Below are positions 9,652 through 63,780 of a stretch of DNA of 64,000 nt, piece by piece (within the stretch, counting starts at the first letter, position 1; every line of letters starts with the position of its first letter). This stretch comes from Gossypium raimondii (taxonomy: Eukaryota > Streptophyta > Magnoliopsida > Malvales > Malvaceae). The stretch lies in contig NC_068569.1 in assembly GCF_025698545.1 (NCBI RefSeq), forward strand, positions 3,100,001 to 3,164,000, in the 5' to 3' direction. A model generated the notes under the pieces. The model made no database searches, was not told the origin of the DNA, and worked only from the letters and a program-made list of their open reading frames with translations. Position numbers and translations under genes: made by a program.

Positions 9652-12600
9652 TTATTTCAGGTTAACCCTAAAACTAGGTTTAGAATATAAAAACATTTTA
9701 AACATTCCGCCAAACAGGGTTGGCATTATAATTCTCGCCTCTTTCTTGCTAAGATTTTTCTTTTTAGTACGCTCTACAAGAGACAGATGAGATGAATCAG
9801 GGCTCAGCGATGGGTGGATTACGGATCCTTCTTCCCTGATAAACAGAGCAATGAAAAAGCCTTCTTTGTCCTCACCCGGGTCAGTCCGGAGCAAATGTTC
9901 AACTACAAAGCAATAACGCAGCGGAATTTTAACTAATTAATACACACCAAATACCAATGTCCAAAAAGCAGCCAATCACAGACATGGATATTGTGGGGAT
10001 AAATCATCAACTTACAGCCTTCTAGAACCGGAAGACCACGACGGTGCCACTGGGGAAAAGGTGTTGCTAGTCGAAAACCATGAGATGCAGCAAGGGGTAA
10101 AATAGACTTGACAACATCTTCATTTTCAATTTGGTGGATGGAACAAGTGCTGTAGACTATTCTCTCAACTTGGGGAACTGTCGTTGAGAATGTAAAACAT
10201 ATAATCAGCCCATAATTTAAATGCCACATAAATAAAAGCATGAAACATATATATACTTAACAGCACAGTGCATGTGTTAGCGCTTTCTTTTGAAAGGCGG
10301 CCAGCTTGGTAAGTCTCTCTGTTTCATCAACATTTGCTGATTGACCTGAATAATTTAATATGCAGATAAGAGAGAAAACAAGGAGCAATTTGGACAGAGT
10401 TAAAATCTATGAACAGCATAATGTTCACATTGTAATGAAATAATAGTAACTGCAAAACTCATTTGATAATAAATACTTAAATAGGAAACTAACTTGGTAT
10501 GACAATATAAGTAATACCAAATAAGAAGTTCGCATCAGTAACACTTGCTTCTAGAAAGTTTTATGATTGAATAGATGCACATAATTACCTTAATCACTAA
10601 AAAAAACTAAGAAAGGAAGCTATTACCACACTACAAAGATGCACATAATTACCCGCAGCATGAGATGGAAGCAGATGGTCCAATCTCTCAGCAACTGTAC
10701 CAGATCCAGAGCAGGAAGGATCTAAAAGAATGGCACGCACCTGCAACGTCAATTTGCTTGAGAACTTGAAGAATAAGTAAGACTGTAGCATTAAAGAAGC
10801 TAGAGGAGAAAGACATTTGATGTTTAAAACTAGTGAATGGAACTTGACACACTGCTGAGGTGAGCTGCTTATGCTTCAATTGAAAGAACAACCGGCTAAC
10901 AAAAGAGCCATGCAACTAAAACTCATTTAGTCTCTACTTCTGAGACTCAAACAAGTTTAAGTATTGCACAAACATCTGCCTTTTGAAAAAGGCATGTCTA
11001 ACCTATTTTAACTCAGGACACAAACGAGTGCATGCTTACCTTGGAGTATGGAGGATCTTTTGGGTCTAAGCTTAGAAAATCGCTATGAAAAACTTCAATA
11101 TCTACAACCAATTAAGAATAACATACCACAGCAAAAATTTTCATTCAGAAGCGAGGATGATGATTAACAACATATGCGAGGAGTTGACTGAAATGAAAAC
11201 AAATAATTATAAAACAAGGATAACAGGAAAAGAATGCTTTACAATGAGAACAGATTTTAAGTTGTATATAGCAGGCTATTCCATGATGAAAACCAGTGTT
11301 ATATAGAATAAGAGTAGTCCTTAAATAGACAAATCTAAACAATCAAAAGATATTTGCAAGGATACTACATGCGCCAGATAGTCTGACAGTGTCTGCTAAA
11401 CGTTTTATCCTTTCCTTGTTCAGTTCACAGGCTATGACCTTTCCTTTCCCTCTCATAAGAGCAGCGAGATGGACAGTTTTATTCCCTGGAGCTGCACATG
11501 CATCAAGAACCTTCACAGAAATATGGAAGTAAGCATGCTATAAATAGCTGCCAACATCAAACTCAAGCAGGAAACTTATGAATATCTACCACACAACCAA
11601 AACGAATCTGCATGGGTACAGAATATTTATATAGTCACAAAGTAAGGATGACTCGATATACCATGTACAACATAAAAATGATAAAATAACAATTTCTCTA
11701 GCGAGAAGACTTGGTAAACAATCAATGTCTGATGACCATTAACTAACCTCCCATCCTGGTTCAGGATCAAGAGCCGCTGCCACCATAGAACTTGCTTTCC
11801 CCTGTATGATTGCAAATTTGAATCAAACAAAAAAACTAAAAAAATTTGAGAAACTGCTATTAGTGCATAGTAACAATATTCCAACAGTAGACAACTATAA
11901 TAGTCGCTCATTTATGAACTTATTAATGACTTACTTGCATAAACACACTTCCATTCATGACCAAAGGGTGATCATGAAGATCACATTTTGGTGGGAGTTT
12001 TAACAAGTCAGGGACCAGGTCATCTTTCTCCACCTATTAAGAAAATGAAAAGTTTTAACAAAATAACACACAAAAAAAACTGACTTCGAAAAGTAGACAC
12101 AGATTAGAGATATCAGCAAAGTAAAAACATAAGAAAGAAAAAGAAGAGGTAACCAGACCTGCAACCATGGACTTTTTATTAAATATATGATAAGAATAAG
12201 CAGCAAAGAGAAAGGTAAGAACGGTTGCTTTAGAGATTACTCTATATTACATAAAACATTCAAAATAATGCATGACACCCCACTAAGGTTTAGCTTTAGC
12301 GTAGGTTGCAAAAGTACCATGTATTGTTTCCTCAATTCAATTAAGGCAGAATCAACATCCAGTTTAAGTGTGTTGACACGAACATATCGTGGTTTTGAAA
12401 CATCTGCAACACATTTATGCTACGCATCAAGTAACGAAAGAATGACACACTTGGATGTAAGAAAACATCTTACTTAACACATACCAGGAGTTTGGTAATG
12501 GTCTAACAAATCTTCAATGCGCTTCATCTTTTTCCTCACCAAAAGCCGAGCTAAAGCAGACTGAAGAGAGACTTTTCTCTGTAGCAAAAATTTCTCCGCT

Positions 12601-13631: not shown

Positions 13632-14926
13632 TGTTTGCAAGAGAGTGGGGAGAGCCTAGGAGGGAGCAAGCAAAGAAAGAAACCTCTGAAAATCCCACGA
13701 TCGGATTCAACTCGATCCAAAACGCACCGTTTCCTCATTGTGGAGCTAGGGCTCTCCACACCGGGCTGGGAAATAAGTTTCAAGCCCAAGTTTGACCCAA
13801 CAATCAATGCAGTGGGCTTGATTAGCCTCAAGGATCTGGATGTTGTGGTCACTGATATGGTCTCCATCACCAACAATTCCAGCCGTAACCAACCATAGAA
13901 AGGCCCATTAATCTATTTACATAATCCATAGGGCGTAAACCTGCACCTCCCTCCAAACTGAGAGAATCTTTTCCTGTAATAAATGGGATGTAGATAGTGG
14001 ACCACGTTGGAATCTAGTCATTGCTGACATACAGAACCGGGACCACCTATGGGGCCTGAAGTCACCTAATTGTAAGTCCAACTGCATTTTGGGGACAAGT
14101 TTGTAAGTTTAATATTTTTTAAGATTGCTTTAAAATAATATTATAAATTAATAATTAAAATTAAATTTTAAAATAATAAAATTTATTTAAATATTATTAA
14201 AAAATAACATTACAATTTGCAAATATCTAATGAGCTTCGAAAGCTCTTTTCCAAAAAGGAAGCTTGGAAGGAAAAAAATTTTAAAAGCACACTTTGTGTA
14301 AAGGACTAGGAAGAAATAAGGAGTGGCGGCGCCCGCACAAGTTTTAAAATTAAAAATTATAAAATAAAAAGAAATTTAATTGAAGTTGAAAATATTAAAT
14401 ACTTTTACCTTTTGTTTTTAAATTAATACTAAAAATAACATGTATTGATTGAATGACAAATGATTGATGGTTGAGGAAAGAAAGTGTGAAAATTGATTTT
14501 AGAAAGCCGATTTCCTTTTCCATTATAAAAGTATGTATTAGTTAGATAATTAATATATAATGAGCATTAGCATGGAACGTTTTCCGCATAATGACAAATT
14601 AAGCTTTTAAAATTGATATATATATTTAAATTAAAGTTGGTTAAAATTTAAACTTAGGGCCGAAGTTAAATTTTTTTTAAGGGCGAAATTAAATTGTAAT
14701 TTTATGATAGTAAAATTATATTTTCATCATTTTAATAGTCTCTATCTTTATAGTTTTTAAAGGATTAATCAAAATTTTATTATTTTTAGGGGAGGTCAAA
14801 GTGCAATTTTACCTTTACTAATTTAAAATTTTAAAAATTTCAAAAAAGCCTAAATGAAAAAATTTTCATTCTAAGGGGGCCGGGGCCCCTGCCAACCCCT
14901 GGTTTCTCCCCTGATTTAACCGTCAA
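13632..14926. other. NSUN5-like promoter and repeat-derived spacer
   Basis: From 13632 to about 13900 is the upstream region of NSUN5. AT-rich DNA follows. About 14655-14915 resembles the low-GC MITE at 25460-25679, sharing segments such as TAATTTAAAATTTTAAAA and GCCAACCCCTGGTTTC. No gene seen. Confidence 0.5.
14655..14915. repeat. Degenerate member of the CCAGCCCCT-type MITE family
   Basis: Long stretches are alignable by eye with 25460-25679: a GGGGTCGAAATTAAATT-like start, AATAGTCT...TCTTTATA, TTTTTAGGGG...TCAAA, and an end near CTGCCAACCCCTGG. The outer terminal repeats are not clear in this copy. Confidence 0.5.
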
Positions 14927-16704
14927 TGTCACAATACGATTTTGGGCCTAGTTAGAACAGTAGTTTCGGGACCATAAATCCAACGAGAAAAAATTTATTC
15001 TTATTATATTTTTATGGTCTACAATTTCACGGAATAATTTCATGAAAATTTTGTTCGAAAATTTCGACGTTTGAGCACTCAATTTAATAAAAAGGACTAA
15101 ATGTAAAAAGTGCAAAAATTGAGTTCTACATGTTAGAAGTGTCCAATTGTTATGAAATTTTAAATTGGAGATCCTTATATGGTAATTAGACCATTTGTTA
15201 AGTTGATGGACAAAAATGGACATGGTTAGGCATGTTTCCAAAGTTTTTCATTAAGGGCATTTTAGTCATTTAGTATTTAAAATGAATTAAAAAAATTAAA
15301 AGCCAATTTTTGTCCATCTTCAAGCTAGGGGCTGAAATGTGCATGGAGAAACCATGGCTAGGGTTTTTCAAGCTTCGAAGCTCGATTGTAAGTTCGTTCT
15401 ATCCTCGTTTTTAATGATTTTCACGTTTTTGAAATCCTTGTAACATGATTTATTTATTTCTACCATTTATTTGAGATATGATGAAGGTCTAAGTTTTGAC
15501 CCATGTTAGAAATTTGTGTATTTTGATGGTAAATGGTAGATTATGCATGTTTATGGCTAGAATGATTTCGAAATCCCCTGTTCTGACTTTGGAAAATCAT
15601 TAAAAATTGTACAAAAATAATTATGGGATAAACTTTATATGTTTAGAATCCTGAATGAGTCTATTTTCAAAACAAACAAACGATAACATTATTTGAATTC
15701 TGTACTATGAAATAATTAATTTTAGTGAAGAAGGGTCAGAACTGTAGAGCAGTGAAACAGGGAAAACTTTAAACAATAAACTGTACTTATTGACTAAGCC
15801 AAAAATTTTGAAAATTTTATGGCAAAAAGATATGTGAGTCTAGTTTCAAGAAAAATTAACGGGTCTTAATTTGGAGCTCGGTAGCTCGAGATATAAATAA
15901 ATTAGTGACTCATACTCAGACAGACAGTTTGAATTTACATACAAGAAAATAATGAAAGTATGGATAATGTTATTTAAGTGTGTTATACACATTAAGGATG
16001 TGGAATAGAGAGGAGGAGGAGGAAAATTGGAAAATATATGAATAATTTGTGTAAAATTGGCCATATGCTCGATTATGATTGATAAACGATGAAATAGAAA
16101 TAATGCTTATATTTGCGCGTGATTGGTCATGATTTAACATTTTGTGGGAAAATAAAGTTTCATAGTATGTGTGTATGATATATTTGGAATATGATTTGGC
16201 TTGAAGTAATGTCATGAATGGTTTATGAATTAACACATGTTGGTAAGTTTGATACATGAACAAATGTTGTACTCATCCATGCTTATAATGCTTATGCTAT
16301 ATGTTTATTTGGGTTAATATTTTTGGTGTACATGCTTAGGCTTTGGCCAAGTTGTGGTTGGATTATGCCATGTTAAACTTATAAGTTATGCATTGAGATG
16401 GTAAGTGCCTAAACGGAAATTGCTAGTGATAGGATTTGAAGTGTGAGCATGAGAAATTGTGAATTGAATAAAAAGAAATGAAGCATTGAATTGCACGAGT
16501 ATGTATCGGATCTCGTAGGCCCTATTTATTATGATTATAATATATTGAGGATATATTGTGAAGAATTATAAAAGCATGTTAATAATTTGAAAGTTTTAAT
16601 TTAGATGAAATTTTATAACTCGGTTCAATATGTTTACAAGTTTATGTGTTTTGGTAATGCCTCGTACCCTATTTCGGTGTCGAATACAAGTAAGGGGTGT
16701 TATA
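14927..16704. mobile_element. Solo LTR of a Gypsy-type retroelement (fossil)
   Basis: A 1778-bp segment starts TGTCACAATACG and ends GGGGTGTTATA. It is bounded by an identical 5-bp target duplication, GTCAA, at 14922-14926 and 16705-16709. No internal gag-pol region is present, so this is a lone LTR left by recombination between two LTRs. Sequence style, length and ends match LTRs I associate with Gossypium Gypsy elements; the family call is from memory. The matching target duplication suggests a fairly young to middle age. Confidence 0.8.
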
Positions 16705-16709
16705 GTCAA

Positions 16710-18261
16710 CTTTTCAAAAAGAATGGAATTATTTTTTAAAGAAAATATTAACTAAAATGTTAAAATTTTAAACATGAAAGCCCTATAACAATCCATGTGT
16801 ACTTTATACTATCTTTTTACAAACTTAACATTTTTAAAATTTTAATTTATTTTATAAAATTCAATTTTTTTGCTAATTTGACATTTAAGATAAATAATAT
16901 CATATCAAGATGTACACGTGGGTTGCCATGTACGTTGACACACCAACGCCATTAAAAAGTTAATGTTTTAATTAATATTTTATTAAAATATTATTTGACT
17001 CTATTTGAAAGATTAATAATAAATTTAGCTTTAAAAAATTAGAGCAAAATTGATAAAATATATAAACATTAAAGACTAATGGTACGTTTGTTTGGTGTAA
17101 AATATTTTACTAAAAATAATTTCTAGAAATTGAATTTATTTTCTGAAAAATCTTATACCTTTTGGTGTTTGGATAATTTTGAATAAAATAATCAAGAAAT
17201 CATTTTAATATTATATTTGTATTTAAATTAAATAATGATTATTAATGGTCCAATACAAATTAATTACATTCACTAACATAAGCATATATTTTAATTAAAA
17301 CATCTACTTCAAATTATCAATTTGAGCCATTACTAAACAATGTCATAATATTTTTTGGCCAAAGACAGAATATATAGAGAACTCAAACAAATGGAATAAA
17401 AAGACAGAATAAATTAGTACAATCAATCCCTGATACACCAAGCTACAGTCAACCAAGAAACAAATTTATTCAATGGTTAGGCACTTTTTAGGTGATTGAA
17501 ATTTTACTAATTTAAAATTTTAAAAGTTCTATATTATAGGATTTGGGCCCCTTCCACCCCTGTCAACGGTTAAGATTTGAACCTCTAAGCAAAACATCTG
17601 TCCAATCATCAACACCAACTCTACCATAAAACAACTACATAATCTGATGTTAATAAAAATAACAATGGAGCAACAATGTCTATAAACCTTCCACCTCATG
17701 AACCGCTTTAACACATCTACATGCCCACTTTGAACACCTTTAAAAAAATCAACAAATCATCTCTTTCAGTAAGTCTCCTTCGTTAGAAAATGCATAAGAT
17801 GTCACTCGGACACATTTCTTAGAAACAAACAACAATGCTTTCAAAATCATCAAAATTTTCATTAGTAAGTGAGCTAAAATAATACAAGGCTGTGAACTAG
17901 CTAAAAAAACACATAAATAATGCAAATACGCTCTGTACAAAACCAAGGTGTGTTGATTGGAGATGCAAGGAGAGGCGTTTGGCTGAGAGAGAATGAAGCA
18001 GAGAAAGGCATCTGAGAGAAGAAAGAATGGAGAAGCAAAACCACAAGTCCATTATATATATATATATATATATTTTGTCTAAAGAACATTTTACTACAAA
18101 ACACGCGAATTTTAGGTCCATTTGTAAAATATTTTACCTTCACTAAAAACATCGGATAAAGTGTTGCCGGTCTCATGTTTATTACCCATAGAATGGACTT
18201 TTGTCTGCCGTAAAATTAATTTAATTTTTTTAAAACAAAACCGCGATCAATCATTCTAACA
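16710..18261. other. AT-rich intergenic stretch with repeat remnants
   Basis: A further scrap of the CCAGCCCCT-type MITE is visible near 17489-17567. A (TA)n microsatellite is at 18053-18072. The segment starting at 17088 (GTTTGTTTGGTGTAAAATAT) looks like a MITE end, but I could not find its matching partner. No gene seen. Confidence 0.45.
18053..18072. repeat. (TA)n microsatellite
   Basis: About ten uninterrupted TA units. Confidence 0.9.
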
Positions 18262-18479
18262 TAACAGTGTGTTTGGTTCAGTGTAATAGGTAATCCATTA
18301 CGCCCCGATTACGCGTCTATTACATTAACGACCTATTCCGACATTTGGTTAGCTGTAATAGGTATTACGCGCGTATTACAATCCCGACCTAATCCTCAAA
18401 TTCCCTGCTTTTCTATTCCCTTCCCAACTCTCTGTTTTACCCACCCGACCCACCCGACCCTCTCCTTTTTCTGTCCTCA

Positions 18480-18596
18480 TCATTTCTCCTCGCCTGCCTT
18501 TACCGATTCTCTCTGTCGATCATTTTTTCCCTTTCATTTGTTGCAGCACGTTTGAAAGCCACTGCTTCATTTTTTTCTCTCGGTCTCGGCGTGAGG
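18480..18596 (+). pseudogene. Possible captured 5' leader exon
   Basis: A pyrimidine-rich, GC-richer block ends in CGTGAG followed by GTATGAATC at about 18597, which looks like a leader exon with a splice donor. It could be the 5' UTR exon of the PTI1-like fragment at 19836. This link is inferred only from order and spacing. Confidence 0.3.
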
Positions 18597-19835
18597 TATG
18601 AATCTTGAACTTTTCATTTTAGTTTTCTGTCTTTGCCTTGGATTGTGGCTGCTTTGCATGCTGATTTGTCTGTCTTTTCATTTCTTCATTTTTTCTATCG
18701 GTCTCTGTTTTCGCCGGCTTCACTGTCTCAGATCTTCAGTTCAACTAATAGGCAGAGTCTCTTTTTGAACTGATTGCTTCACTTCATCGTCCCCAAATTT
18801 CAGGTGGTATTTCCATTATATGGATGTGTATATATATTATTTTCGTTTGGATGCTTTTGATTGACATGCAAACGGGTCAATGTAATTAGGTGATTTTCGG
18901 TACTCACGAAACTGTTTGATTTTTTAAAACTGTGATAAATAAATAAATAAAAAGGTTGTTGAATGCTGTGTTTGACTGGCCTTTTATGCGTAATCTTATA
19001 AGCTATACATTTGGTGAGTGGTTGATCTGTTTGATAGAGTGATTTAACTTGGATATCTGTGCTTCGTTTTACTGGGGAGAGTTTATTGAATAGAATTTCT
19101 CATAATATATCGATTTTAAGTAGTAGGGGAACTTTTAGGTATTTAAAGCGGGTGAAATTGTAGATTTGGGCATTTTCGTTTTATGAAAAGTTGTGGCTAA
19201 AAGCCTTACCAAACTTTGTTTCCAATGATTTCAAGTTGATTGTGAGCAATACTGCCCTGTGGTTTCTTTTGATGTTTCCGCATGCCAGGCTGCATTTTGA
19301 TAACCCAATGAAAGTTTAACTCAACTCACCTCTCATTTCATAGGATATTATGTTTGAGAATGAAATGCCGCAATTTCATGAGTTTATGGAATTGATCTCA
19401 TATGCATACCTGGAATAGTTTTTTTTTTTCCTTTCATTTCTTTCTGCTCTTATGCAAAACAAATGGGAGTTTGCTTTATAGCATGTTATTTGATTCAAGG
19501 ACAAATATTATATAACAAGATATGTTATCTGGTTTGCCAGACTAAAGAAATGCTCCACATGGACACAATGAAAAGACTTCCAGTTCTGTAATATCTGGAC
19601 TACAAACTAGCAGATTGTGAAAAAACTAAATGCATTTTACTTCTGCAGTTTTTCCTGGAAATTGCTTTCATCTATCTAACCTAATATTTGTGCTCTGCGT
19701 ATTTGCTGGAGTGCAGTTTTGCGGTTTCTATATAAGAAATCTGTTTTTCTTTTTTGATAGTTGTACTCACAGATATTCTTCCTTGAATTCCTAGATTTGG
19801 ATCTTGCAAATTAGAGATAATTCGCAAGAGGAACT

Positions 19836-19877
19836 ATGAGTTGCTTTGGCTGTTGTGAAGAGGATGGCATCTTGTGA
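19836..19877 (+). pseudogene. PTI1-like kinase N-terminal fragment inside the TIR element
   Basis: An ATG opens MSCFGCCEEDG and then meets a stop after 13 codons. MSCF-CCEED is the very conserved, acylated N-terminus of plant PTI1-like receptor-like cytoplasmic kinases. The rest of the kinase does not follow, so this is a captured fragment rather than a gene. The leader just before it has no repeats. The call rests on about ten residues and is therefore moderate. Confidence 0.5.
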
Positions 19878-20149
19878 CAAAATTTGCAAATTTTATGCTC
19901 TTGGGTTGTTTTTACATTTAAATCATATGGCATATTATATTTATGGTTTAGGGATACTGCCTTTGAGTCTTCTTTTTTTGGTTTGATATGGCCAGTTCTA
20001 GTTGCTGGAGTGCAGACCTGCGCCAGGCTCCATGCCTGATTGTTCTTGCTTATTCTTCATTGTAATGAAATTATAACTAAAACTTTAATTGAGGTACAAA
20101 GCTATTGGACTAGTTTGAATTGTATCTAGTTTGTAAATGAAAAACTCAG

Positions 20150-20446
20150 ATGTTTGCTTCTAAGATGGGGTTCCCTCCTGATGAAAATTTGATCAAGGAA
20201 AGCGAGGAAAAGCTAGGCAAAGTTCTGGATATTTATGAGGAGAGGCTGTCAAAGAACAAGTACTTGGCTGGTGATTTCTTCAGCCTTGTTGACCTGAGCC
20301 ACCTGCCATTTACTCAGTACTTGGTGGGTCAAATGGGAAAGGAATACATGACAACCAGCAGGAAGCATGTGAGTGCTTGGTGGGATGATATTAGCAGCAG
20401 ACCGTCCTGGCAGAAGGTTCTCCAGCTCTATGCTCCTCCTTTCTAA
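20150..20446 (+). pseudogene. GSTF: Phi-class glutathione S-transferase, C-terminal fragment
   Basis: A 98-residue open frame matches the C-terminal helical domain of phi-class GSTs. It includes KVLDIYEERLSKNKYLAGDFF, with the LAGD and DLSHLPFTQYL motifs, and ends SAWWDDISSRPSWQKVL, the family's usual C-terminus. Full-length GSTFs are about 215 residues. The thioredoxin-like N-terminal domain that binds glutathione, normally in exons 1-2 and the start of exon 3, is absent for more than 1.8 kb upstream. The fragment begins inside the usual exon 3, so it cannot make an active enzyme alone. It lies within the TIR element at 18265-22200. The frame is intact, so capture may be recent or the frame may be retained. 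Confidence 0.8.
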
Positions 20447-20806
20447 GAATTGAAAATGATGCAATCTGGGGATGGGGTCTTTTTAATGAAGTCTGCTTTG
20501 TTGTTTAGCAGTTTGGTTTGGTTTGGGGTCTGGTCTTTGACTGTTTTAAGAGGCCAACTAGTTATCCTATGTTAGTTATACTTACAATAAAATGTTGGTA
20601 GGGGTAGGGGTTACAGTTATCGTTTTGTTTGCCTATGTTTGATATTATGAATAAAGATGAAGAAATCATGGAGATATCAAAGAGAATCAAGTGCACAATT
20701 GAATGTGCTTCAAAGGCAAATTTTTTCTTTTATTTTCTATGGTTTTATTACTTATTGATTTTCTTTTTGTTGGTTTAAATCTTCGAAATAATTGTCCAAA
20801 AGGTTT

Positions 20807-20936
20807 TGGTAGTATTGGCATTGGCATCAATAAAAGTTTGAGCTTACTATGAGTATAATTTGAACCCAAATGTGGTAGTGTTGGCATTGGCATTAATAAA
20901 ATTTGAGCTTACTATGAGTATAATTTGAGCTCAAAT
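20807..20936. repeat. Tandem duplication of a 65-bp unit
   Basis: 20807-20871 and 20873-20936 are near-identical. Both carry TTGGCATTGGCATYAATAAA and GAGCTTACTATGAGTATAAT. They lie just after the GST fragment's 3' sequence. Confidence 0.85.
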
Positions 20937-21460
20937 CACATTTATGATCACCCAAATCATATTTGAGGTGATAAATACTTTATCCATCAAGTTAATACTG
21001 AGGTTCAAGTTAATTATGGTGTTTATTTATTGTTAATAATTTATACAAACTTATGATTATAAGTAGTGTAAAAAGGTAAATTATTTACTATGATATCAAA
21101 CAAGTGAAGTGGCTTATTATAAGTTAATTATGTTTATGCGAATATAATTCTCAAGTTATATTATGATTTTAGTAAATTCATGTAAGAATATTTATTATTA
21201 AGAATTTTATGAAATTATATATCATTATTAAATTATATTTAATATTAATTATTTTAAATTATATAAATTCATATAAGAATATTTATTATCAAGAGTTTTA
21301 TGAAATTATATATTATTATTAAATTATATTTAATAATAATTATATTAAACTATACAAATTCATTTAAGAAAATTTATTAGTAATAATTATTTTAAATTTT
21401 ATTAAATCATATATTTTAATTAAAATATATTTAATAATAATTATTTCAAATTATATTTTA

Positions 21461-21940
21461 TAGTATCATATATTATGATTTTAAGTAAATTCATATAAGA
21501 ATATTGATTATTTAGAATTTTATTAAATCATATATTTTAATTAAAATATATTTAATAATAATTATTTCAAATTATATTTTATAGTATCATATATTATGAT
21601 TTTAAGTAAATTCATATAAGAATATTGATTATTTAGAATTTTATTAAATCATATATTTTAATTAAAATATATTTAATAATAATTATTTCAAATTATATTT
21701 TATAGTATCATATATTATGATTTTAGTAAATTCATATAAGAATATTGATTATTAAGAATTTTATTAAATCATATATTTTAATTAAAATATATTTAATAAT
21801 AATTATGTTAAATTATATTTTATAGTATCATATATTATGATTTGAGTAAATTCATATAAGAATATTGATTATTAAGAATTTTATTAAATTATATATTTTA
21901 ATTAAAATATATTTAATAATAATTATGTTAAAATATGATT
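21461..21940. repeat. 121-bp AT-rich tandem array, about four units
   Basis: The start TAGTATCATATATTATGATT recurs at 21461, 21582, 21703 and 21823, giving a 120-121 bp period with few differences. The preceding 21150-21460 contains more diverged units built from the same words (AAATTCATATAAGAATATT, ATATTTAATAATAATTAT), so the array is younger at its right side. Confidence 0.9.
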
Positions 21941-22200
21941 AAATTATTTATTATTGATATTAATAATCTTATTAAAATTTAATAACAATAACAATAATCA
22001 TTTATCAAAACAAATTTATGCTATGGGTATTCTAGTCATTTTAGTTTTTTTCCATTATGCTATTACACCTCTATTCCATTCAACCAAATACAAGATTACT
22101 ATTACGTCTCTATTCCATTACATTCAACCAAACAATTGATTTGCTATTACACCTCTATTTCATTACGCCTCTATTCCAATACAGCGAACCAAACGTGCTG

Positions 22201-22822
22201 TAAATTTAGATTGGGTGATATGGTTTTTTATATATAAATAATTATAAGATATTAATTAATTACTATTATAATTTTAAAAAAAATTATATACGAAAATGAT
22301 TCATTTATTACAATGAAAGTTGATATTGTCTGATCAACCGAGGACATCACCTCTTTTTCCCTTAATCATTACTCAAACCATTAAATTTTTTTAAAAGATA
22401 ATTTTAGCATCTTCACTGTATCAAGCGGCACATGTATGTATTTTTTAGAATATTCGTAAAAAATACGGATATTTACAGTAAAAAAAAAAGAAAAACTATA
22501 TTTCCCTATATTTCCTTAATGGTGCCTCTGTTGACTACACCAGTAAATTTTTAAAAAAAAGTTTCTGTCAATTAAAATAAATTGAAAACAAAAGAAGAAA
22601 AATTAGTAATTCTTGACACCCACTTTCCCAGGCCCATTAACTGTTATAAAAGTCATACCAAAAAGCTCGTTGACAATGATAACGACATCAAAGTCACCTA
22701 CAATTTGTATGAACCATGCCACTTAGGCTGTTAACTTGTTATCCTCATCCAGTTCTAGCAACCGGCCATTAGCTACTGCCAGAAAATCCAAGCATCAATC
22801 TAGCAAAGCAAAGCGTTTGCTA
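22201..22822. other. Upstream region of the methyltransferase gene
   Basis: AT-rich promoter and leader. The open reading frame continues upstream from 22822 to a TTG at 22736 with a Ser-rich stretch, but without an ATG. I see nothing else. Confidence 0.5.
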
Positions 22823-24735
22823 ATGGAGGGTCTAATTCAGGTGCCTTATGATGTTACGGTCAGGTTCATGTTGACTTCCTTGGAGCGCAATTTGTTGCCT
22901 GATGCTATTATAAGGAGGTTGACTCGGCTTCTCCTGGCTAGTCGTCTTCGTTCTGGTTATAAACCCTCCACTGAGCTGCAACTCTCCAATCTCCTTCAGT
23001 TTGCTCATTGTATGTAACATTTCTTAGATTAAACCCTTTTTTTCTTGGATTTGATTTGATTTGATTTGATTTGATTTGACTGTGTCCAAACTGACTTGTT
23101 TGTTTGCTTTGTAGCCCTAAAGGAGATGCCTATAGCTATCAAGACAGACAAGCCTAAAACTCAACATTACGAATTGCCAACCTCTTTCTTCAAGTTGGTT
23201 CTTGGGAAGAACTTCAAATACAGGTTCTTTTCCTTCTTTTTTTCCCTCTCTTTTTGTTTGATCTTGTGTACTGCTTTTTTAGTTGTTGGGTGAATTTTTT
23301 TTTAATGGGATGATGCAGTTGTTGTTACTTTTCTGACGAGTCGAAAACTTTGGAGGATGCTGAGGAAGCAATGTTGGAACTGTACTGTGAGAGATCGCAA
23401 TTAAAAGATGGCCAAACAGTTCTTGATGTGGGGTGTGGATGGGGTTCACTTTCTCTATACATTGCCCGTAAGTACCCCAATTGCAGGGTTACAGGGATTT
23501 GCAATTCCACCACTCAGAAAGCTTTTATAGAGGAGCAATACCGGTAAATGCTCCACTTGCTAAATGAAAAGTATTATTACTCCATGTTAATTTATTACTT
23601 TTTTATTCTTTAAAACAAATTTATGGTTACCCTTCATAGGGATCGGCAATTGCAAAATGTGGAGATCATTGTTGCGGACATAAGCACATTTGAAATGGAG
23701 GCATCATACGACAGGATATATTCGATTGAAATGTTTGAGGTTCATTGTTTTCGACTTTTCGTACAGTCTGTGCTACTACACAGTTTTAATGTTGGTGATT
23801 TGAAATCTTATAATTTCTGCTTTTTAACAGCATATGAAGAACTATCACGATCTTCTCAAGAAGATATCAAAGTGGATGAAAGAGGATAGTCTTCTTTTTG
23901 TTCATTATTTCTGCCATAAAGCATTTGCTTACCACTTTGAGGTGTGCAAAATAATCTGATTGTGCCGAGTAACCCTAATTGTTATTGCTAATATGGGTTT
24001 ATGCAATAGCTAGACGTCATCCGGTTTTCGAGAGTCTATTTTAAATCCAAGGGATTTTACCTGAAATGACAATATCTTGTCAAATTATTTTAATCTAGGA
24101 CATAAATGAAGATGACTGGATAACCAGGTACTTCTTTACAGGAGGTACAATGCCTTCAGCTAATCTGCTTCTATATTTCCAGGTAAAAAGCCTTTTTACA
24201 TCTCATATATGCTATGAATTCTGAAAATTGAAATTCAATAGCCGTAGATTTTGACGTCATATTTATGATCTGCATGACCCAACTGATTTTAATGCCTTGT
24301 TGTCCATCCTTGGTACGCAGGATGATGTTTCTGTTGTCAACCATTGGCTTGTGAATGGGAAACATTATGCAAAAACTAGGTGAGAGCAGTTGTTTTGTAA
24401 TACCAATATAAAAGATCATTACAGTCTTTCAATAGCTATACTAACTTGTTTAACCACCCTGATTCTTCCCTGAGAAATAGCTATAGTATTTGTTTCCCTG
24501 TTAGCAATTTGAAAGTTCAGAGAGTACACTTTTATATTGCAGTGAAGAGTGGCTGAAGAGGATGGACCGAAGCTTGGCTTCCATTAAGCCAATAATGGAG
24601 TCCACCTATGGCAAGGATCAGGCTGTGAAATGGACAGTGTATTGGAGAACATTCTTTATTGCTGTTGCGGAACTCTTTGGATACAATAATGGAGAAGAAT
24701 GGATGGTTGCACTTTTCCTATTCAACAAGAAATAA
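22823..24735 (+). CDS. Coclaurine N-methyltransferase-like SAM methyltransferase
   Basis: Eight exons: 22823-23009, 23115-23223, 23319-23543, 23640-23739, 23831-23941, 24099-24182, 24321-24379, 24543-24735. They total 1068 nt, 355 residues, the family's normal length. The ATG at 22823 ([10 protein letters not shown]) fits homologues; there is no ATG further upstream in frame. Motif I is [16 protein letters not shown] (SAM binding), followed by [18 protein letters not shown], the acidic ADISTFEM and [10 protein letters not shown]. The C-terminus [17 protein letters not shown] is family-typical. It belongs to the cyclopropane-fatty-acid-synthase/coclaurine N-methyltransferase family; Arabidopsis relatives are AT4G33110 and AT4G33120, with unproven substrates. 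In benzylisoquinoline-making plants, relatives N-methylate coclaurine, but that pathway cannot be assumed here. Exon 5 to the 3' flank is duplicated downstream. Confidence 0.95.
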
Positions 24736-25320
24736 AGCCGTCATCAATGCTCATTTCCACCAATAATCAACTTTGGGCATTAGGGGACTAAAATAAGAGC
24801 AACTGTAGAATCGTTGAATATTTTGCAACTCGTACGAGTCACACACGTCTTGCTACTTGTTCCATTGGAAAGACGAATGCATTTTGTACTTTGGACGAAA
24901 CCAAACAACTGCATCAAGAAGCGTCAATGCAGAGAATAAATCATAGCATAAAATTTAAATAATTGATGAAAGTATAACTTCCGTTAGTTACTTCACCTGT
25001 TTAGTTTTACACTATGTAGCAACATTCTCAACTGGGTTTCCACTATTATCTTGAAAATGGAACCAACAAAGTCATCAGCTTCCAAGGAGCCTGGCTATGA
25101 CTGTTCTCCATCATAGACCCAGGGTACTTCATACAGAAGTTGCAAGGAAGGCTATCAGGGATTAACAGGCTCAAGTTCATCAGCAATAACTTGTTTGGTT
25201 CCCTTCTCATATCTCAGCCACTCTAATGTAGCTTGGATGGCCATACTTGATAGGCTTCCTTCTCTAATGACGTCCTTTCTTTTCTACTCTGAAACAAATT
25301 ATTGATGCCTATAACTTCTT
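24736..25320 (+). other. 3' flank of the methyltransferase, part of the duplicated unit
   Basis: This flank is repeated with small indels at about 26865-27510. Shared landmarks include CATTAGGGGACTAAA, AGCCTGGCTATGACTGTTCT and TACTTGATAGGCTTCCT. There is no gene of its own. Confidence 0.7.
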
Positions 25321-25324
25321 CTTT

Positions 25325-25940
25325 TTCCTTTTTGAAAGGAGGTCAGCTTGTTAAGTTTCTCTTTTTCATCAATATTTGCCGATTGACGTGCATAATTTAA
25401 TATGGAGATAAGAGGGAAAACAAGGAACAATTTGGATAGAGCTAAAATCTCTGAGCAGCAGCGAATCCAGAAAATTTTTGTAGGGGTCGAAATGAAATTT
25501 TAATTTTTAATAGTCTAAATCTTTATAAATTTTAAAGAATTAAATCAAAATTTTATAATTTTAGGAGTCAAAATATAATTTTATCTTTATTAAATTAAAA
25601 TTTTAAACATTTCTAAAGGACCTAAATAATAAATTTTTATTTTAGGGTGGTTGGGTCTCTGCCAGCCCCTAGATTCGCTTTTGTTCACCTTGTAATGAAA
25701 TAACAGTAACTACAAAATTCATATGATAATAAATTCTTGAATAGGAAAGTAACTTGGTATTATATTATAAGTAATGCTTAATTATAAGGTGTGTTGTGGT
25801 GGTTGTTTACCTCATGCTTTAATCATGTAATTGGGGTTTTATCATCATTTATGGAAATAAAGCATATTTCATAATCACTAATGTTGGTTAGGCTTTAATT
25901 GAAGGCACAACTGGCTAACAAAAGAGCCATGCAACTAAAA
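25325..25940 (-). pseudogene. Fragment of the NSUN5-like gene, displaced copy
   Basis: About 25325-25790 aligns with 10283-10520 of the NSUN5-like gene (part of coding exon 11 and its upstream intron), apart from a MITE inserted at 25460-25679. A second block at 25892-25940 aligns with 10875-10922 (GGCTAACAAAAGAGCCATGC is identical in both). The region 10536-10870 is not represented; 25800-25890 is unrelated. The exon 11 piece is diverged (for instance GGAGGTCAGCTTGTTAAG against GGCGGCCAGCTTGGTAAG). It lacks almost all of the gene and cannot be functional. It is joined directly to the truncated methyltransferase copy. Confidence 0.85.
25460..25679. mobile_element. Low-GC MITE inserted in the NSUN5 fragment, 220 bp
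   Basis: The ends AGCGAATCCAG and CTAGATTCGCT are inverted repeats. Comparison with the intact NSUN5 intron (AACAGCATAATGTTCAC near 10411-10427) shows this block as an insertion absent from the parent sequence, which confirms its limits independently. A related copy lies at 14655-14915 and a scrap at 17489-17567. A clean target duplication is not visible, so the superfamily is unassigned. Confidence 0.75.
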
Positions 25941-25981
25941 ACTAGGGATAGTTTTGATGCGTTTGACCGTTCAAGTTATCA

Positions 25982-26864
25982 GGATCTTCTCAAGAAGATA
26001 TCAAAGTGGATGAAACAGGATAGTCTTCTTTTTGTTCATCATTTCTGTCAGCATTTGCTTACCACTTTGAGGTATGCGAAATAAACTGATTGTGCTGAGT
26101 AACCCTAATTGTTATTGCTAAAATGGGTTTATGCAATAACTAGACGTCATCCCGTTTTCGAGAATCTATTTTAAATCCAAGGGATATTAGCTGAACTGAC
26201 AATATCTTGTCAAATTATTTTAATCTAGGACATAAATGAAGATGACTGGATAACCAGGTACTTCTTTACAGGAGGTACAATGCCTTCAGCTAATCTGCTT
26301 CTATATTTCCAGGTAAAAGGCCTTTTTACATCTCATATATGCTATGAATTCTGAAAATTGAAATTCAATAGCCGTAGATTTTGATGTCATATTTATGATC
26401 TGCATGACCCAACTGATTTTAATGCCTTGTTGTCCATCCTTTGTACGCAGGATGATGTTTCTGTTGTCAACCATTGGCTTGTGAATGGGAAACATTATGC
26501 AAAAACTAGGTGAGAGCAGTTGTTTTGTAATACCAATATAAAAGATCATTACAGTCTTTCAATAGCTATACTAACTTGTTTAACCACCCTGATTCTTCCC
26601 TGAGAAATAGCTATAGTATTTGTTTCCCTGTTAGCAATTTGAAAGTTCAGAGAGTACACTTTTATATTGCAGTGAAGAGTGGCTGAAGAGGATGGACCGA
26701 AGCTTGGCTTCCATTAAGCCAATAATGGAGTCCACCTATGGCAAGGATCAGGCTGTGAAATGGACAGTGTATTGGAGAACATTCTTTATTGCTGTTGCGG
26801 AACTCTTTGGATACGTTAACGGAGAAGAATGGATGGTTCCAGTTTTCCTATTCAAGAAGAAATA
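25982..26864 (+). pseudogene. 5'-truncated duplicate of the methyltransferase (exons 5-8)
   Basis: Starting inside exon 5, this copy repeats 23848-24735 with only scattered differences, including in introns, so it is a recent duplicate. Exons 1-4 with the SAM-binding motif are missing. Exon 5 has a small deletion (CCATAAAGCATTTGC in the parent against GTCAGCATTTGC here), which shifts the frame so that it ends RYAK-stop. Exons 6-8 (26229-26312, 26451-26509, 26672-26864) keep open frames and splice sites. The last exon has changes giving YVNGEEWMVPVFLFKKK. The duplicated unit runs on to about 27510, with an extra block near 27342-27448. Confidence 0.9.
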
Positions 26865-27510
26865 AAGCCATCATCAGTGCTCATTTCCACCAATAATCAG
26901 CTTGGGGCATTAGGGGACTAAATAAGAGCGACTGTAGAATCGCTGAATATTTTATGCAACTCCTACTCCATTGGAAAGACGAATGCAACTCCTACTCCAT
27001 CAATGTAGAAAATAAATCACGATAGAAATTAAATAACTGATGAAAGTATAATTTCAGTTAGCTACTTTACCTGTTTTTTTTTCACTATTTAGCAACATTC
27101 TTAACTGGGTTTCCACTATTATCTTAAAAATGGAACCGACAGCATCACCAGCTTCCAAGGAGCCTGGCTATGACTGTTCTCCATCATAGACCCAAGGAAC
27201 TCCATACAGAAGTTGCAATGAAGGCAGGCTATCAGGGATTAACAGGCTAAAAATTCAATAGCAAGTACTTGTTTGGTTTTCCTTCTCATATCTCAGGCAC
27301 TCTAGTGTGGCGTGGAGGGTCATACTTGATAGGCTTCCTATTACTGTTAAGTTGCAAAGCTTAGGTATTCTAGTGATTAACAAAAAACTGCTTGTAACGT
27401 TATGATGATATGGAGCCGAGAAATTATACTTGAAAACCAGACTTTTGCTTTCTCTAATGAACTCCTTTTCATTTCTACTCTGAAACAGATTATTGATGTC
27501 TTTATATTTT

Positions 27511-45392: not shown

Positions 45393-46850
45393 TTACAGAA
45401 AAGCAGTGCCAGCAAGACCATGATGTAAAAGATTATGAGCAATAGCATCTCTAGCTTTCATCGAACTTACCGATTTCAAAGCAACTTCAGGGACCATTTC
45501 ATCATCAGCAAGCGCAAATTTCAAGTCTGGGTCGATCCCTTCATCCATCATTTCACAAATATTATGTAAAACACAACAAGCTCCCAGCACAACAGGCAAA
45601 TCCTGTAACTTAACCTCTGTCCTTTTCTGCAAACAACACCACCTCCCTTTAAGTCTCCCAAATGCTTCCTTAGCAATCTTTTGAATCTCCCCAATCTTTT
45701 CATTGAAAGCATGTTGTGTCCAAGTCAAATGCTGTTGTGTGTAAGGAACCAAAACCCAATCCATTAATGGATACCCTGAACTCCCAACAATCCAAACTCC
45801 TTTTAGTAATCCCCCATTTGCCCTTTGATACAAAGCTGATTTTTCAAGCACTTGATCATCGGTCATCGAACCCGGCCACCCTATACAAACATCTGTAAAA
45901 ACTCCCCTAGGATCGACCACGCCTTGTACGGTTATCGAGTACGAGGTTTTCTGGTTCCGCTCCGTGTGTCTCTTGTTGAAATACGCCGCCACGCTTATTT
46001 TCGGTGCGATAATCGGGATGTGCGTTGTGTACATTGATCCGACGACGTTTGGTATCCCCGAAATGCCCTCGAACTCTTCTTTTATTTTCCGCAAGGAATC
46101 CTCTTCTGGCCAGTGTAAGTATTTCGGCATCAAAACGCTGCGTATTGCCGAACACACTTCGAGGACCAGCTTATGACACGTCGAGATGCCTAAACCGAAC
46201 CGTTTCGAAACGAGCCGTAACGGTTCGCCTGTGGCTAGCCGCCAAATGCAAACCGCCACTCTTTGCTTAACGGGGATCGCGTTCCGTAACGTCGTGTCTT
46301 CTTTGGCGATAACGGAGTTGAGTTCTTCGCAGATGAGCTCGAAGGTTGACTTGCTCATCCTGAAAGCCTTCTTGAATTCTTCTTCGGGGTAATCGGGTCG
46401 GTTGCAGTCGTCCCACCAAGCCTTCGATCTGTCTTTTACCCATAATCGCCTTTGCTGACCCGACCCGGATTGTTTGTTCTGTTGGTTGGGTGATTGGTTT
46501 TCCGTTTGGCTAACGGCAGCGACAGCGACGGATGCCGCCATGGTTCGGGACTTCTTCCGCTTCACACGGTCGGTTTCGTCGATTTCGGAGTAGTAGTCTT
46601 GGAGATTGGTGTAAAATTCGAGCATAGTTCGAGTTTTTCTCTTGTGATTGGACTCCAAGATCGATTTCTCTTCATTGGATGCTTCGTTTTGCTCTTCATG
46701 GTCTCGCTTTTCTTGCTCTTCAAGCAACAGTAGCGAAGTGATAATACCGTTCAAATCTTTCTTCTTGGGTTCATTGTCGGTGGAACAGCTATCTTCATCG
46801 TCGGAAAATGTTTCCTCCCGTCGTCTCTTATAATTCTCGCCGTTAATCAT
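45393..46850 (-). CDS. Domesticated HARBI1-like (PIF/Harbinger-derived) nuclear protein
   Basis: A single coding exon of 485 residues. The ATG at 46848-46850 (MINGENYKRRREE) is the first in frame. The N-terminus is acidic and Ser/Lys-rich with nuclear-localisation-like KRRRE and KRKKSR. A DDE_Tnp_4/HARBI1 transposase-like domain covers about residues 160-440. Where active Harbinger nucleases have VxxxDGTHI, this has VVGSMYTTHI; where they have a D in GDSGY, it has VGSSGYPL. The catalytic acids therefore look lost, as in the Arabidopsis orthologue AT5G12010. C-terminal sequence (LGACCVLHNICE, NLLHHGLAGTAFL) is conserved with that gene. It is a host gene, not a transposon: no terminal repeats flank it and the neighbours are syntenic. 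Relatives such as ALP1 and HDP1 act in chromatin complexes; a similar role is inferred. Confidence 0.92.
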   Translation of the reverse strand: MINGENYKRRREETFSDDEDSCSTDNEPKKKDLNGIITSLLLLEEQEKRDHEEQNEASNEEKSILESNHKRKTRTMLEFYTNLQDYYSEIDETDRVKRKKSRTMAASVAVAAVSQTENQSPNQQNKQSGSGQQRRLWVKDRSKAWWDDCNRPDYPEEEFKKAFRMSKSTFELICEELNSVIAKEDTTLRNAIPVKQRVAVCIWRLATGEPLRLVSKRFGLGISTCHKLVLEVCSAIRSVLMPKYLHWPEEDSLRKIKEEFEGISGIPNVVGSMYTTHIPIIAPKISVAAYFNKRHTERNQKTSYSITVQGVVDPRGVFTDVCIGWPGSMTDDQVLEKSALYQRANGGLLKGVWIVGSSGYPLMDWVLVPYTQQHLTWTQHAFNEKIGEIQKIAKEAFGRLKGRWCCLQKRTEVKLQDLPVVLGACCVLHNICEMMDEGIDPDLKFALADDEMVPEVALKSVSSMKARDAIAHNLLHHGLAGTAFL

Positions 46851-46993
46851 TTCAAAGCAAGAAATAGTGAGGAAAAAACAAAAATTCGTTTCTTTGGGGA
46901 ATAGCAAAGCTGGGCGTTTTATATATGAAAAGAAAATGAAAATAAGGGAAAATATTTAATTTAAACAGGCGAAATTTTAAATAAATTAAAAAA

Positions 46994-47798
46994 GGGTAAA
47001 CTACACCTATAGTCACTTTTGTTTACCTTACGTTACGTTTTAGTCACTTATGTTTGAAATGTTACGTTTTAGTCATTTACGTTATCATGTTGTAACATTT
47101 TAGTCATTGAGCCATTAATAAATCGTTAATGGTGTAACGATAGCTGACGTGTACGTTAAATCATCATTTCAAACAAAATTTTAGGTTAAATTATACAATT
47201 GATCTCCATATTTTTTCCGTTTTAAGTAATTTAATTTTTTTTCTTTTATGTTCTTTAAACTTTCCTCTTTTTTTCCATTCTCTTTTGTTTCTCCCTCTGT
47301 TTTCATACCTTTTCCATTTCTTTTAACATATTAGGAAGTTGAATTGGCAATGAAAAAAGAAGTAAGAAGTCGACTGTCATCATTTGCCTATAACCAAAAC
47401 CCATAAACTCATACCATGCTTCTTTTTTCACTACCAATTCGACTTTCTGGTATATTAAAAGAGATAAAGAAGGTAGAAAAACAGAGGGAGAAGTAGAAGA
47501 GAATGGAAAAAAAAGGAAAAAAAAAGAAGAAAGAAAGTTAAAAGAACATAAAAGAATTAAATTGCTCAAAACGAAAAATTATGGGGACCAATTCTATAAT
47601 TTAACCTAAAGTTTTTGTTTGAAATGATGATTTAACGTGCCATGTCAGCTTACCATTACACCATTAACGACAATTAACGGCTCAGTGACTAAAATGTTAC
47701 AACACGATAACATAAGTGACTAAAATGTAACATTTCAAACATAAGTGACTGAAATGTAACCTAAGGTAAACAAAAGTGACCACGGGTGTAGTTTACCC
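46994..47798. mobile_element. Near-perfect palindromic Mutator-like MITE, 805 bp
   Basis: The left arm (46994 to about 47365) and right arm (about 47415 to 47798) are inverted copies along almost their whole length, leaving a loop of about 50 bp. The ends read GGGTAAACTACACC and, inverted, GGGTAAACTACACCC. It is flanked by ATTAAAAAA at 46985-46993 and 47799-47807, a 9-bp duplication as made by Mutator-like transposases, though the sequence is simple. The element starts 144 bp upstream of the HARBI1-like ATG, inside its likely promoter or leader. Confidence 0.85.
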
Positions 47799-47821
47799 AT
47801 TAAAAAATGAATTTTGCTTTT

Positions 47822-61831: not shown

Positions 61832-62371
61832 TAAGTGAGTTAACTCCTATTATTTCCTTGTCAACTTTAGAAGACAATTGAGCGAGCTTTGCTTTTCCCT
61901 TCTTAAGAAGATTACCTGTTATTCAAGCAGTGGCTGTAGAAGTTAGGCAGACAACCCCATCGCTGCTCTCTCAGCTTCTCCAGAAGCTTCGCTCTAATAT
62001 TCAGGTATTTATTTGCAAGCAATGAGTGAAATTTTATTTTACTTGGAATTTAGTGAAGTACATGGTCCATGTATTGCAGTTACTGGAATGTCTTCTAATT
62101 ATTGGATATTTACGCCGAATAGGAGTGTTTGGCGAGTATGAAATGCGATTGCAGGTAACTTTTTGCACAGCTACTTCATCAATTTCCATCTCCGTTCCCT
62201 TATTTCTTTTTGGTCTTCATCATGTGTTGAAGTAATTGAGGGAGCAAATATAAAATAACAAATAATAAAAGGGAGGGACTGAATAAAAAGAAAATAAAAC
62301 AAACTTGGATACATAGAAAATAACACCAAAACTTAAGAAACCATTTACTTCCACTTTTATTTTCCTTTTAA

Positions 62372-63114
62372 CTCGTGGATATAAATGAAGAAATTCATGG
62401 CCCATTTATAAGCTTCCTAAGCCGGTTTAGACTAGATATACATACGTGTAATATTATTTTAATTTATGGATAAGATTATATGATGATAAGTTCAAAAGTT
62501 CTCTAAAACAATGAAAAAGATTGCAAAAGAAAAGAATCGGTGACTTCAACACTTTCTCTCATCAAACTTTTCTAACTCATTATTGTTTTTATGTCATCTT
62601 AGGATCAACAATTTAATTAGAAGAATCCAATCTTTCATATACGAAATTAAAATAAAATATATTCGTATAAAAATTAAATTATCGATAATGTATCTCCATA
62701 TGTTTCATTCATGAGTGAAAATCAAAATTTTCATTAATTAAATTAGTGCTTAATTGTTGCAATTCAATTGAAATAGCATAAAAAAATTATAGTAAAAAAG
62801 AAAAGTCGATGAGGGAAGTGTTGAAGTCACCGACTTCTCTCTTTCCCGATCTTTCTTACCGTTTTCAGAGAACTCTTATCATCTAAGCTTATCCATAGAT
62901 AAACTTATCCATAGATTAAAATGACATACTAACTCACGCATATAAATGAAGAAATTCATAGCCAACTTATAGGTTTCCTATACAGTTTAGATTAAATATA
63001 CATGCATATAATAATTATAGATAAGTTTATCTATGAATAAGCTTAAATGATGACGAGTTTAAGAGTTCTCTAGAAAACAGTAAGAAAGATCGAGAAAGAG
63101 AAGTCGGTGACTTC
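62372..63114. repeat. Three copies of a 90-bp module arranged + - + in a COG8 intron
   Basis: A module ending GTCGGTGACTTCA-type sequence occurs at about 62465-62570 (+), 62811-62905 (-) and 63028-63114 (+). The last two face each other as a hairpin (GAAGTCACCGACTTCTCTC against AGAGAAGTCGGTGACTTCA). A longer direct repeat joins 62376-62570 and 62937-63114 (both with ATAAATGAAGAAATTCATRG). It looks like one or two TIR elements of one family, nested or partly deleted. The superfamily is not clear. Confidence 0.7.
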
Positions 63115-63780
63115 ATGTGTGCCCTTCTGACAGCATTACTTAATGTTTCAGTTTTTGAGATGCCGAGAGACGTGGCTCACTAGGATTCTTGCGGATGTGG
63201 ACCAGAAAATGCTTATGAGTATTTAAAAGGGATGATAAGCTGTCATAGGATGCATCTTTTTGATGTTGTTAACCAATATCGAGCAATTTTTTCTGATGAT
63301 GCATCTGGAAGTGAAGAGAACTATGACGGTGGGCTTCTTTTTAGTTGAGCCATGCATCAGATTAGTTCAGACCTTAAAACTCTTTCATGCTCCCAAAGAT
63401 AACAGAGGGTGAATCACTGTCAAGTATTCTGGATCAGTGTATGGTGAGAAAAATTTTCGTTTCTAACAAGATCATAGTCAATATCAGCTTGTATCAAAAG
63501 ATTTCACTTTTTGAGCGAACTTGAAAGGTAATCTGGTTTCAGATTTGCAGTAATGCTACTCTAACACCACTTCATTTTAGAATGGGGTTAATTGTGCAAA
63601 AGAAACGCTGCTCCTAGGTGGCTGATTCATACCTCATGTGAAACAAGTAACTTTGTTGCTTCCAAATTTGGTAATAGTCTGTTTTGTTCTTTGTTGTTGA
63701 CACTTGACAGTATTGTGCAATAGGACTAGGTTGGGTTGGGCTGGATTTTCGAGGTTTGCTTCCATCTCTTTTTGAAGAGT

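Follow-up and report, generated by a model that had tools for sequence, protein, structure and literature searches.

A probable non-autonomous PIF/Harbinger-like TIR element holding the end of a phi-class GST gene and probably the leader and start of a PTI1-like gene

The locus and its surroundings

The stretch of DNA analysed here, referred to below as the window (64 kb), contains an element of 3936 bp at 18265-22200, both edges of which can be placed to the single base. The element has terminal inverted repeats (TIRs), flanking TAA trinucleotides, repeats near its ends and an interior that includes DNA resembling plant genes; the coordinates of these features are collected in Table 1.

Table 1. 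Parts of the element and its flanks, with positions counted in the window
Feature	Position	Strand	Basis
Left TAA, candidate target-site duplication	18262-18264		same letters as 22201-22203
Left TIR, CAGTGTGTTTGGTTC	18265-18279	+	end pattern and direct reading
Inner copy of end motif TTTGGTTNNNTGTAATRG	18344-18361	+	0 mismatches; oriented as left end
Pyrimidine-rich leader-like block, candidate leader exon, ending GAG/GTATGA	18411-18595	+	composition; putative role
Candidate leader intron, GTATGA...CTCACAG	18596-19772	+	splicing predicted
PTI1-like start, 13-codon frame MSCFGCCEEDGIL followed by TGA	19836-19877	+	frame read directly; PTI1 label putative
Phi-class GST C-terminal fragment, 98 codons, open, own stop	20150-20446	+	ATG 20150, TAA 20446
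Probable captured GST 3' end	20447-20655	+	putative; AATAAA at 20586-20591 and 20650-20655
Direct repeat, two 65-bp copies, 92%	20807-20936		repeat comparison
Tandem array near right end, A+T-rich (8% GC), units of ~91 and ~121 bp	21173-21934		repeat comparison
Two inner end-motif copies	22071-22088, 22115-22132	-	1 and 0 mismatches
Right TIR, CAGCACGTTTGGTTC	22186-22200	-	end pattern and reverse complement
Right TAA, candidate target-site duplication	22201-22203		same letters as 18262-18264

The downstream gene has its ATG at 22823, about 0.6 kb past the right end of the element, and its first frame gives a weak match to N-methyltransferase chains (3e-5). One unspecified frame among the 62 plus-strand frames scanned (see below) matches CMAS at 1.5e-18. 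Further downstream, in what appears to be an N-methyltransferase-like gene region, is a direct duplication of 90% identity (23843-25260 and 25977-27339). The sequence at 10288-10921 resembles 25330-25940 in three pieces (85-89%), and 25490-25676 is present only in the latter copy and is itself similar to 14713-14906 (78%). On the minus strand, 45393-46955 is an open frame of 520 residues with a DDE_Tnp_4 domain (6e-36), which looks like a domesticated gene, putatively of the HARBI1/ALP1 type, and just upstream of it lies a foldback of ~811 bp (46991-47801) that is 81% identical to its own reverse complement over 832 columns. At 62369-63115 direct repeats are interspersed with inverted ones (66-76% identity), perhaps another decayed foldback element. 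The gene content, which also includes small heat-shock and PP2C frames, recognised by eye, and mitochondrial carrier, kinase and PHD domains, recognised with Pfam, marks the window as plant nuclear DNA.

Ends, subterminal motifs and boundaries

A TIR element with TAA flanks had been proposed at this position in an earlier, sequence-only reading, and comparison base by base bears this out: the 15-bp TIRs are identical at 12 of 15 positions, and all three differences are transitions. Medicago PIF/Harbinger elements have TIRs of 14-25 bp, TTA or TAA duplications and ends that follow the rule G(N)5GTT, as given in the excerpted text of PMC2213677. The TIRs here fall within that range of lengths, are flanked by a 3-bp duplication of the TAA/TTA type and have GTT beginning seven bases in. 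Their first base is C at both ends, and not the G with which all Medicago ends in the table of that paper start, a G that belongs to the search rule of PMC2213677 rather than to a definition of the superfamily. Since both ends begin with C, we call the element Harbinger-like and do not treat it as a proven member. The excerpted account of rice Tourist-like ends notes high conservation at positions 1, 4 and 11; position 4 is T at one end of our element and C at the other, which counts against the Harbinger reading.

Among the published Medicago ends the best agreement is with subfamily MtPH-A6-1, whose end is tabulated as GGGTCCGTTTGGTTC (PMC2213677, in extract). The pattern TWA-N6-GTTTGGTTC was based on that row of the Medicago table, after the ends were known, because the row agreed with them; it has two matches in the window, which are the two element ends facing inward, with a chance mean of 0.02 and with two matches in 0 of 100 shuffles. 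When TWA is left off, GTTTGGTTC, which forms positions 7-15 of the TIRs, has one further match in the window, at 25193.

Inside the TIRs the end motif TTTGGTTNNNTGTAATRG recurs. It has 14 matches in the window at up to three mismatches, against 8.5 expected (a total of 14 or more came up in 3 of 100 shuffles), and the five copies with no more than one mismatch all lie within the two element ends, at 18272 and 18344 on the plus strand and at 22071, 22115 and 22176 on the minus strand; the pattern was read off these same ends, so part of this clustering is built in. TTTGGTT words at 19977, 20512 and 20517 fall outside the 14 matches. The inner copies are oriented like the outer ones, as repeated binding sites would be, and a binding role may be considered for them. 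As they share the orientation of the outer copies at each end, they look like subterminal repeats and not like remnants of inner TIRs. An interior-only alignment of the first 236 and last ~200 bases, made with the right edge set two bases too far right, favours, under three of four scorings, inner copies on the right over the outermost right end as partners of the left end, and under the fourth pairs an inner left copy with the right end, which is a point against the reading of the ends given here. The repeat comparison of the window used the same edge, and no second copy of the element was found in the 64 kb, where matches reach 28 bases at most.

A 3-bp duplication within A+T-rich DNA is weak on its own. 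No duplication of 5, 8 or 9 bp is present at the element ends (the 8-bp flanks are TAACATAA and TAAATTTA, the 9-bp flanks CTAACATAA and TAAATTTAG, unequal in both cases), and by eye there is none of 10 or 11 bp. Mutator duplications measure 9-11 bp, and as the ends show neither an 8-bp nor a 9-11 bp duplication, hAT and Mutator were rejected; the CACTA reading was dropped on inspection by eye, as the ends do not begin CACTA.

Inverted similarity is also found outside the TAA, between 18222-18261 and 22204-22243, over about 40 bases and with a gapped score of 26 outward compared with 24 inward. Because the similarity continues past the TAA as strongly as it does inward, the boundary is not beyond doubt. 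We consider it unlikely that the true TIRs are longer, reaching to ~18222 and ~22243 with the TAA internal, in which case the element would belong to another superfamily or be nested in an older palindromic element, the remaining variant being a Harbinger element inserted into a palindromic target. Random TAA pairs reach the outward score of 26 in 2 of 1500 cases, and single TWA sites do so in 9 of 1500; without gaps, the outward match is 11 of 16 bases, reached by 10 of 3438 TWA sites and by 0.12% of 20000 random TAA pairs, and in an earlier 40-base flank test 4 of 3000 random pairs did as well as the flanks. The joined flanks give a predicted empty site, CTAACATAAATTTAG, that is itself an imperfect palindrome. 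However, these flank tests were made after the similarity had been noticed, with lengths chosen post hoc, and the score of the earlier test falls within only the 95th-99th percentile of simple 40-base shuffles (element end again two bases too far right). Longer TIRs would also leave unexplained the TWA at the spacing required by published Harbinger ends, and none of the 5-, 8- or 9-bp duplications accompanies the ends. Insertion into an imperfect palindrome is the simplest reading of the flank similarity.

Gene-derived DNA and its coding potential

The best characterised of the gene-like segments is the GST fragment. Its 98-residue frame matches Pfam GST_C at 1e-15 and is identical at 69 of 97 positions to GSTF9 chain 6ezy (215 residues) over residues 118-214 of the latter, the PDB match through which the phi class was assigned; these two matches substantiate the 98-codon open GST phi fragment of the sequence-only reading. 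Host coding DNA thus lies between the TIRs, as expected of a Pack-TYPE element. Being without the N-terminal domain, the fragment should not be a transferase, to judge from its predicted product.

The second segment is more tentative. A PTI1-like start had been claimed, with a leader-like block upstream of it. The frame MSCFGCCEEDGIL is indeed present, and its putative PTI1 identity is proposed from a short resemblance of the peptide to PTI1 kinases; a text search of the literature for the peptide found no matching paper. Pyrimidines make up 78% of the 170-base window at 18411, which comes second on the plus strand to a region at ~41,100; some windows of the other strand equal it in pyrimidine richness. 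The sites of the candidate leader intron were picked by eye among two donor-like and eight acceptor-like sites. Of the proposed Harbinger-type Pack element with two gene fragments, then, the Harbinger-like ends and, by profile and PDB match, the GSTF fragment stand, and the PTI1 capture is a proposal from a short peptide resemblance.

A Pfam scan of the 41 six-frame stretches of at least 35 aa inside the element gave neither a transposase nor a Myb domain; among these stretches one matches GST_C families and the only other hits are to DUF5960 (0.09) and Cadherin_C_2 (0.28). Nor was either domain found in 24 plus-strand frames of 22-34 aa inside the element that start outside 21100-22000, so that the lack of a transposase noted earlier holds for the 41 and 24 frames scanned. 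A DDE transposase and ORF1 are expected of autonomous members only, and neither turned up in these frames. The full-length GST or PTI1 gene that would have spoken against the earlier reading was looked for in 62 plus-strand frames, comprising these 24 and 38 flanking frames of at least 38 aa from 14500-18264 and 22204-26500. Among the 20 families listed at E ≤0.5 there is no GST N-domain and no kinase domain, and hence no sign of a full gene here.

RNA families are absent from 18000-22400 at gathering thresholds. In viral and prokaryotic contigs there were no matches to the PTI1-like start, none to two end patterns, which are left/right composites that match neither end exactly, and none confirmed among pattern matches to the GST protein in 21 viral stretches. 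Given that these collections are not plant genomes and that the end patterns are composite, the absence of relatives there says little.

That the element may be transcribed from the captured PTI1 leader was suggested in the sequence-only reading. The arrangement of the two fragments raises the question of a working chimeric gene, in which transcription from the PTI1 promoter and leader would continue across the GST fragment as far as the polyadenylation signal of the latter; the predicted product is either a GST C-domain peptide of 98 residues or a short fusion. Both fragments are on the plus strand with the gene start before the gene end, the open GST frame has an ATG and a stop of its own, there are plausible leader intron sites, and AATAAA occurs downstream of the GST frame. 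Nevertheless, we judge such a gene very unlikely. When 4 donors were paired with 38 acceptors, skipping pairs less than 60 bases apart, none of the four GT dinucleotides in the 13-codon frame joined in frame to the AG at 20149 that precedes the GST frame; 16 of the GT-AG pairs do keep the frame, but each uses an acceptor within the GST frame and a donor that by eye is unlike the consensus. The predicted splicing therefore makes a PTI1-GST fusion protein unlikely; the GST peptide, moreover, would be one without the N-terminal domain. Somewhat less probable again, in our estimate, is a mobile ready-made transcription unit. Such a unit would have taken promoter, leader and leader intron from one gene and coding end and terminator from another, both in sense and in the right order, and each new insertion would then be transcribed and give rise to a GST C-domain peptide or to small RNAs directed at two host genes. 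The least probable reading is that this is not one transposed unit, and that ancestral pseudogene DNA lies between two unrelated end-like sequences, which would suit the 3 differences in 15 bases and the lack of a second copy in the window but not the fact that the end pattern and the close subterminal copies occur nowhere else in the 64 kb at that stringency.

Relation to known elements and proposed origin

In the MtPH-A6 family of Medicago (PMC2213677, in extract), GTTTGGTTC occupies TIR positions 7-15 in subfamilies 1 and 3, the duplications are TAA/TTA, and tandem arrays occur near the ends in subfamily MtPH-A6-4, with a 60-bp unit. Unlike the element described here, MtPH-A6 has ends that start GGGTCC and an array unit different from the ~91 and ~121 bp found here, and the word "capture" is absent from the main text of that paper. 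Pack-PIF elements of maize and rice (Gisby and Catoni 2022, PMC8903248, in the parts of that article drawn on here) have PIF ends (the TIRs of the cluster shown are 15 nt long), duplications that are mostly TTA/TAA, and gene fragments inside, and are classed apart from transposase-bearing elements; Pack-TYPE elements with DNA from several loci are reported in the same source. They differ in that the regions in cluster #18 measure 163 and 58 bp, compared with a 98-codon fragment and a possible gene start in one 3.9-kb element here. Pifvine-3 of grapevine shows transduplicated exon and intron DNA in PIF elements, and grapevine PIF duplications are mostly TAA/TTA, but the Pifvine-3 family encodes transposase and ORF1, which our element does not (Benjak et al. 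2008, PMC2528002, in extract).

The view that Mutator-like elements provide the best-documented cases of gene capture is in line with the text of PMC8903248 drawn on here; Pack-PIF elements and transduplication by PIF elements have also been published (PMC8903248, PMC2528002), and gene capture is treated, in the portion of it drawn on here, in a 2026 review (PMC13317346). As Pack-PIF and Pifvine-3 are already in the literature, the element is a new example and not a new kind, and nothing shown here exceeds what the excerpted papers report for Pack-TYPE elements.

There is good support for a non-autonomous Harbinger-like element that contains host gene DNA. For the fuller statement, that the 3936 bp are a non-autonomous PIF/Harbinger-like TIR transposon holding the end of a phi-class GST gene and probably the leader and start of a PTI1-like gene, we put the probability at roughly 0.8. 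The insertion site of such an element would be a TAA that lies some 0.6 kb upstream of the N-methyltransferase-like gene, and the element would have moved by means of a transposase supplied in trans that recognised its ends and perhaps the subterminal motif. Its host DNA would have been copied from at least one gene, a phi-class GST, of which it has the final 98 codons and probably the 3' end. A second source is probably a PTI1-like kinase gene, represented by its leader and start, and both pieces are in plus orientation. This DNA was most likely gained by error-prone repair inside the element. Capture by fusion of two neighbouring elements, a model presented in the excerpted text of PMC8903248, was set aside as without support from the orientation of the motifs; the model permits loss of the inner TIRs, so the orientation does not refute it. 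Today the element would probably be a passenger without a protein product.

The locus offers a clear case in which gene DNA was captured by a Harbinger-like element and not by one of the much-studied Mutator-like elements. A gene end and a probable gene start in the same orientation form a layout from which a chimeric gene could arise, and the terminal and subterminal motifs provide a concrete query for the family of the element in the host genome.
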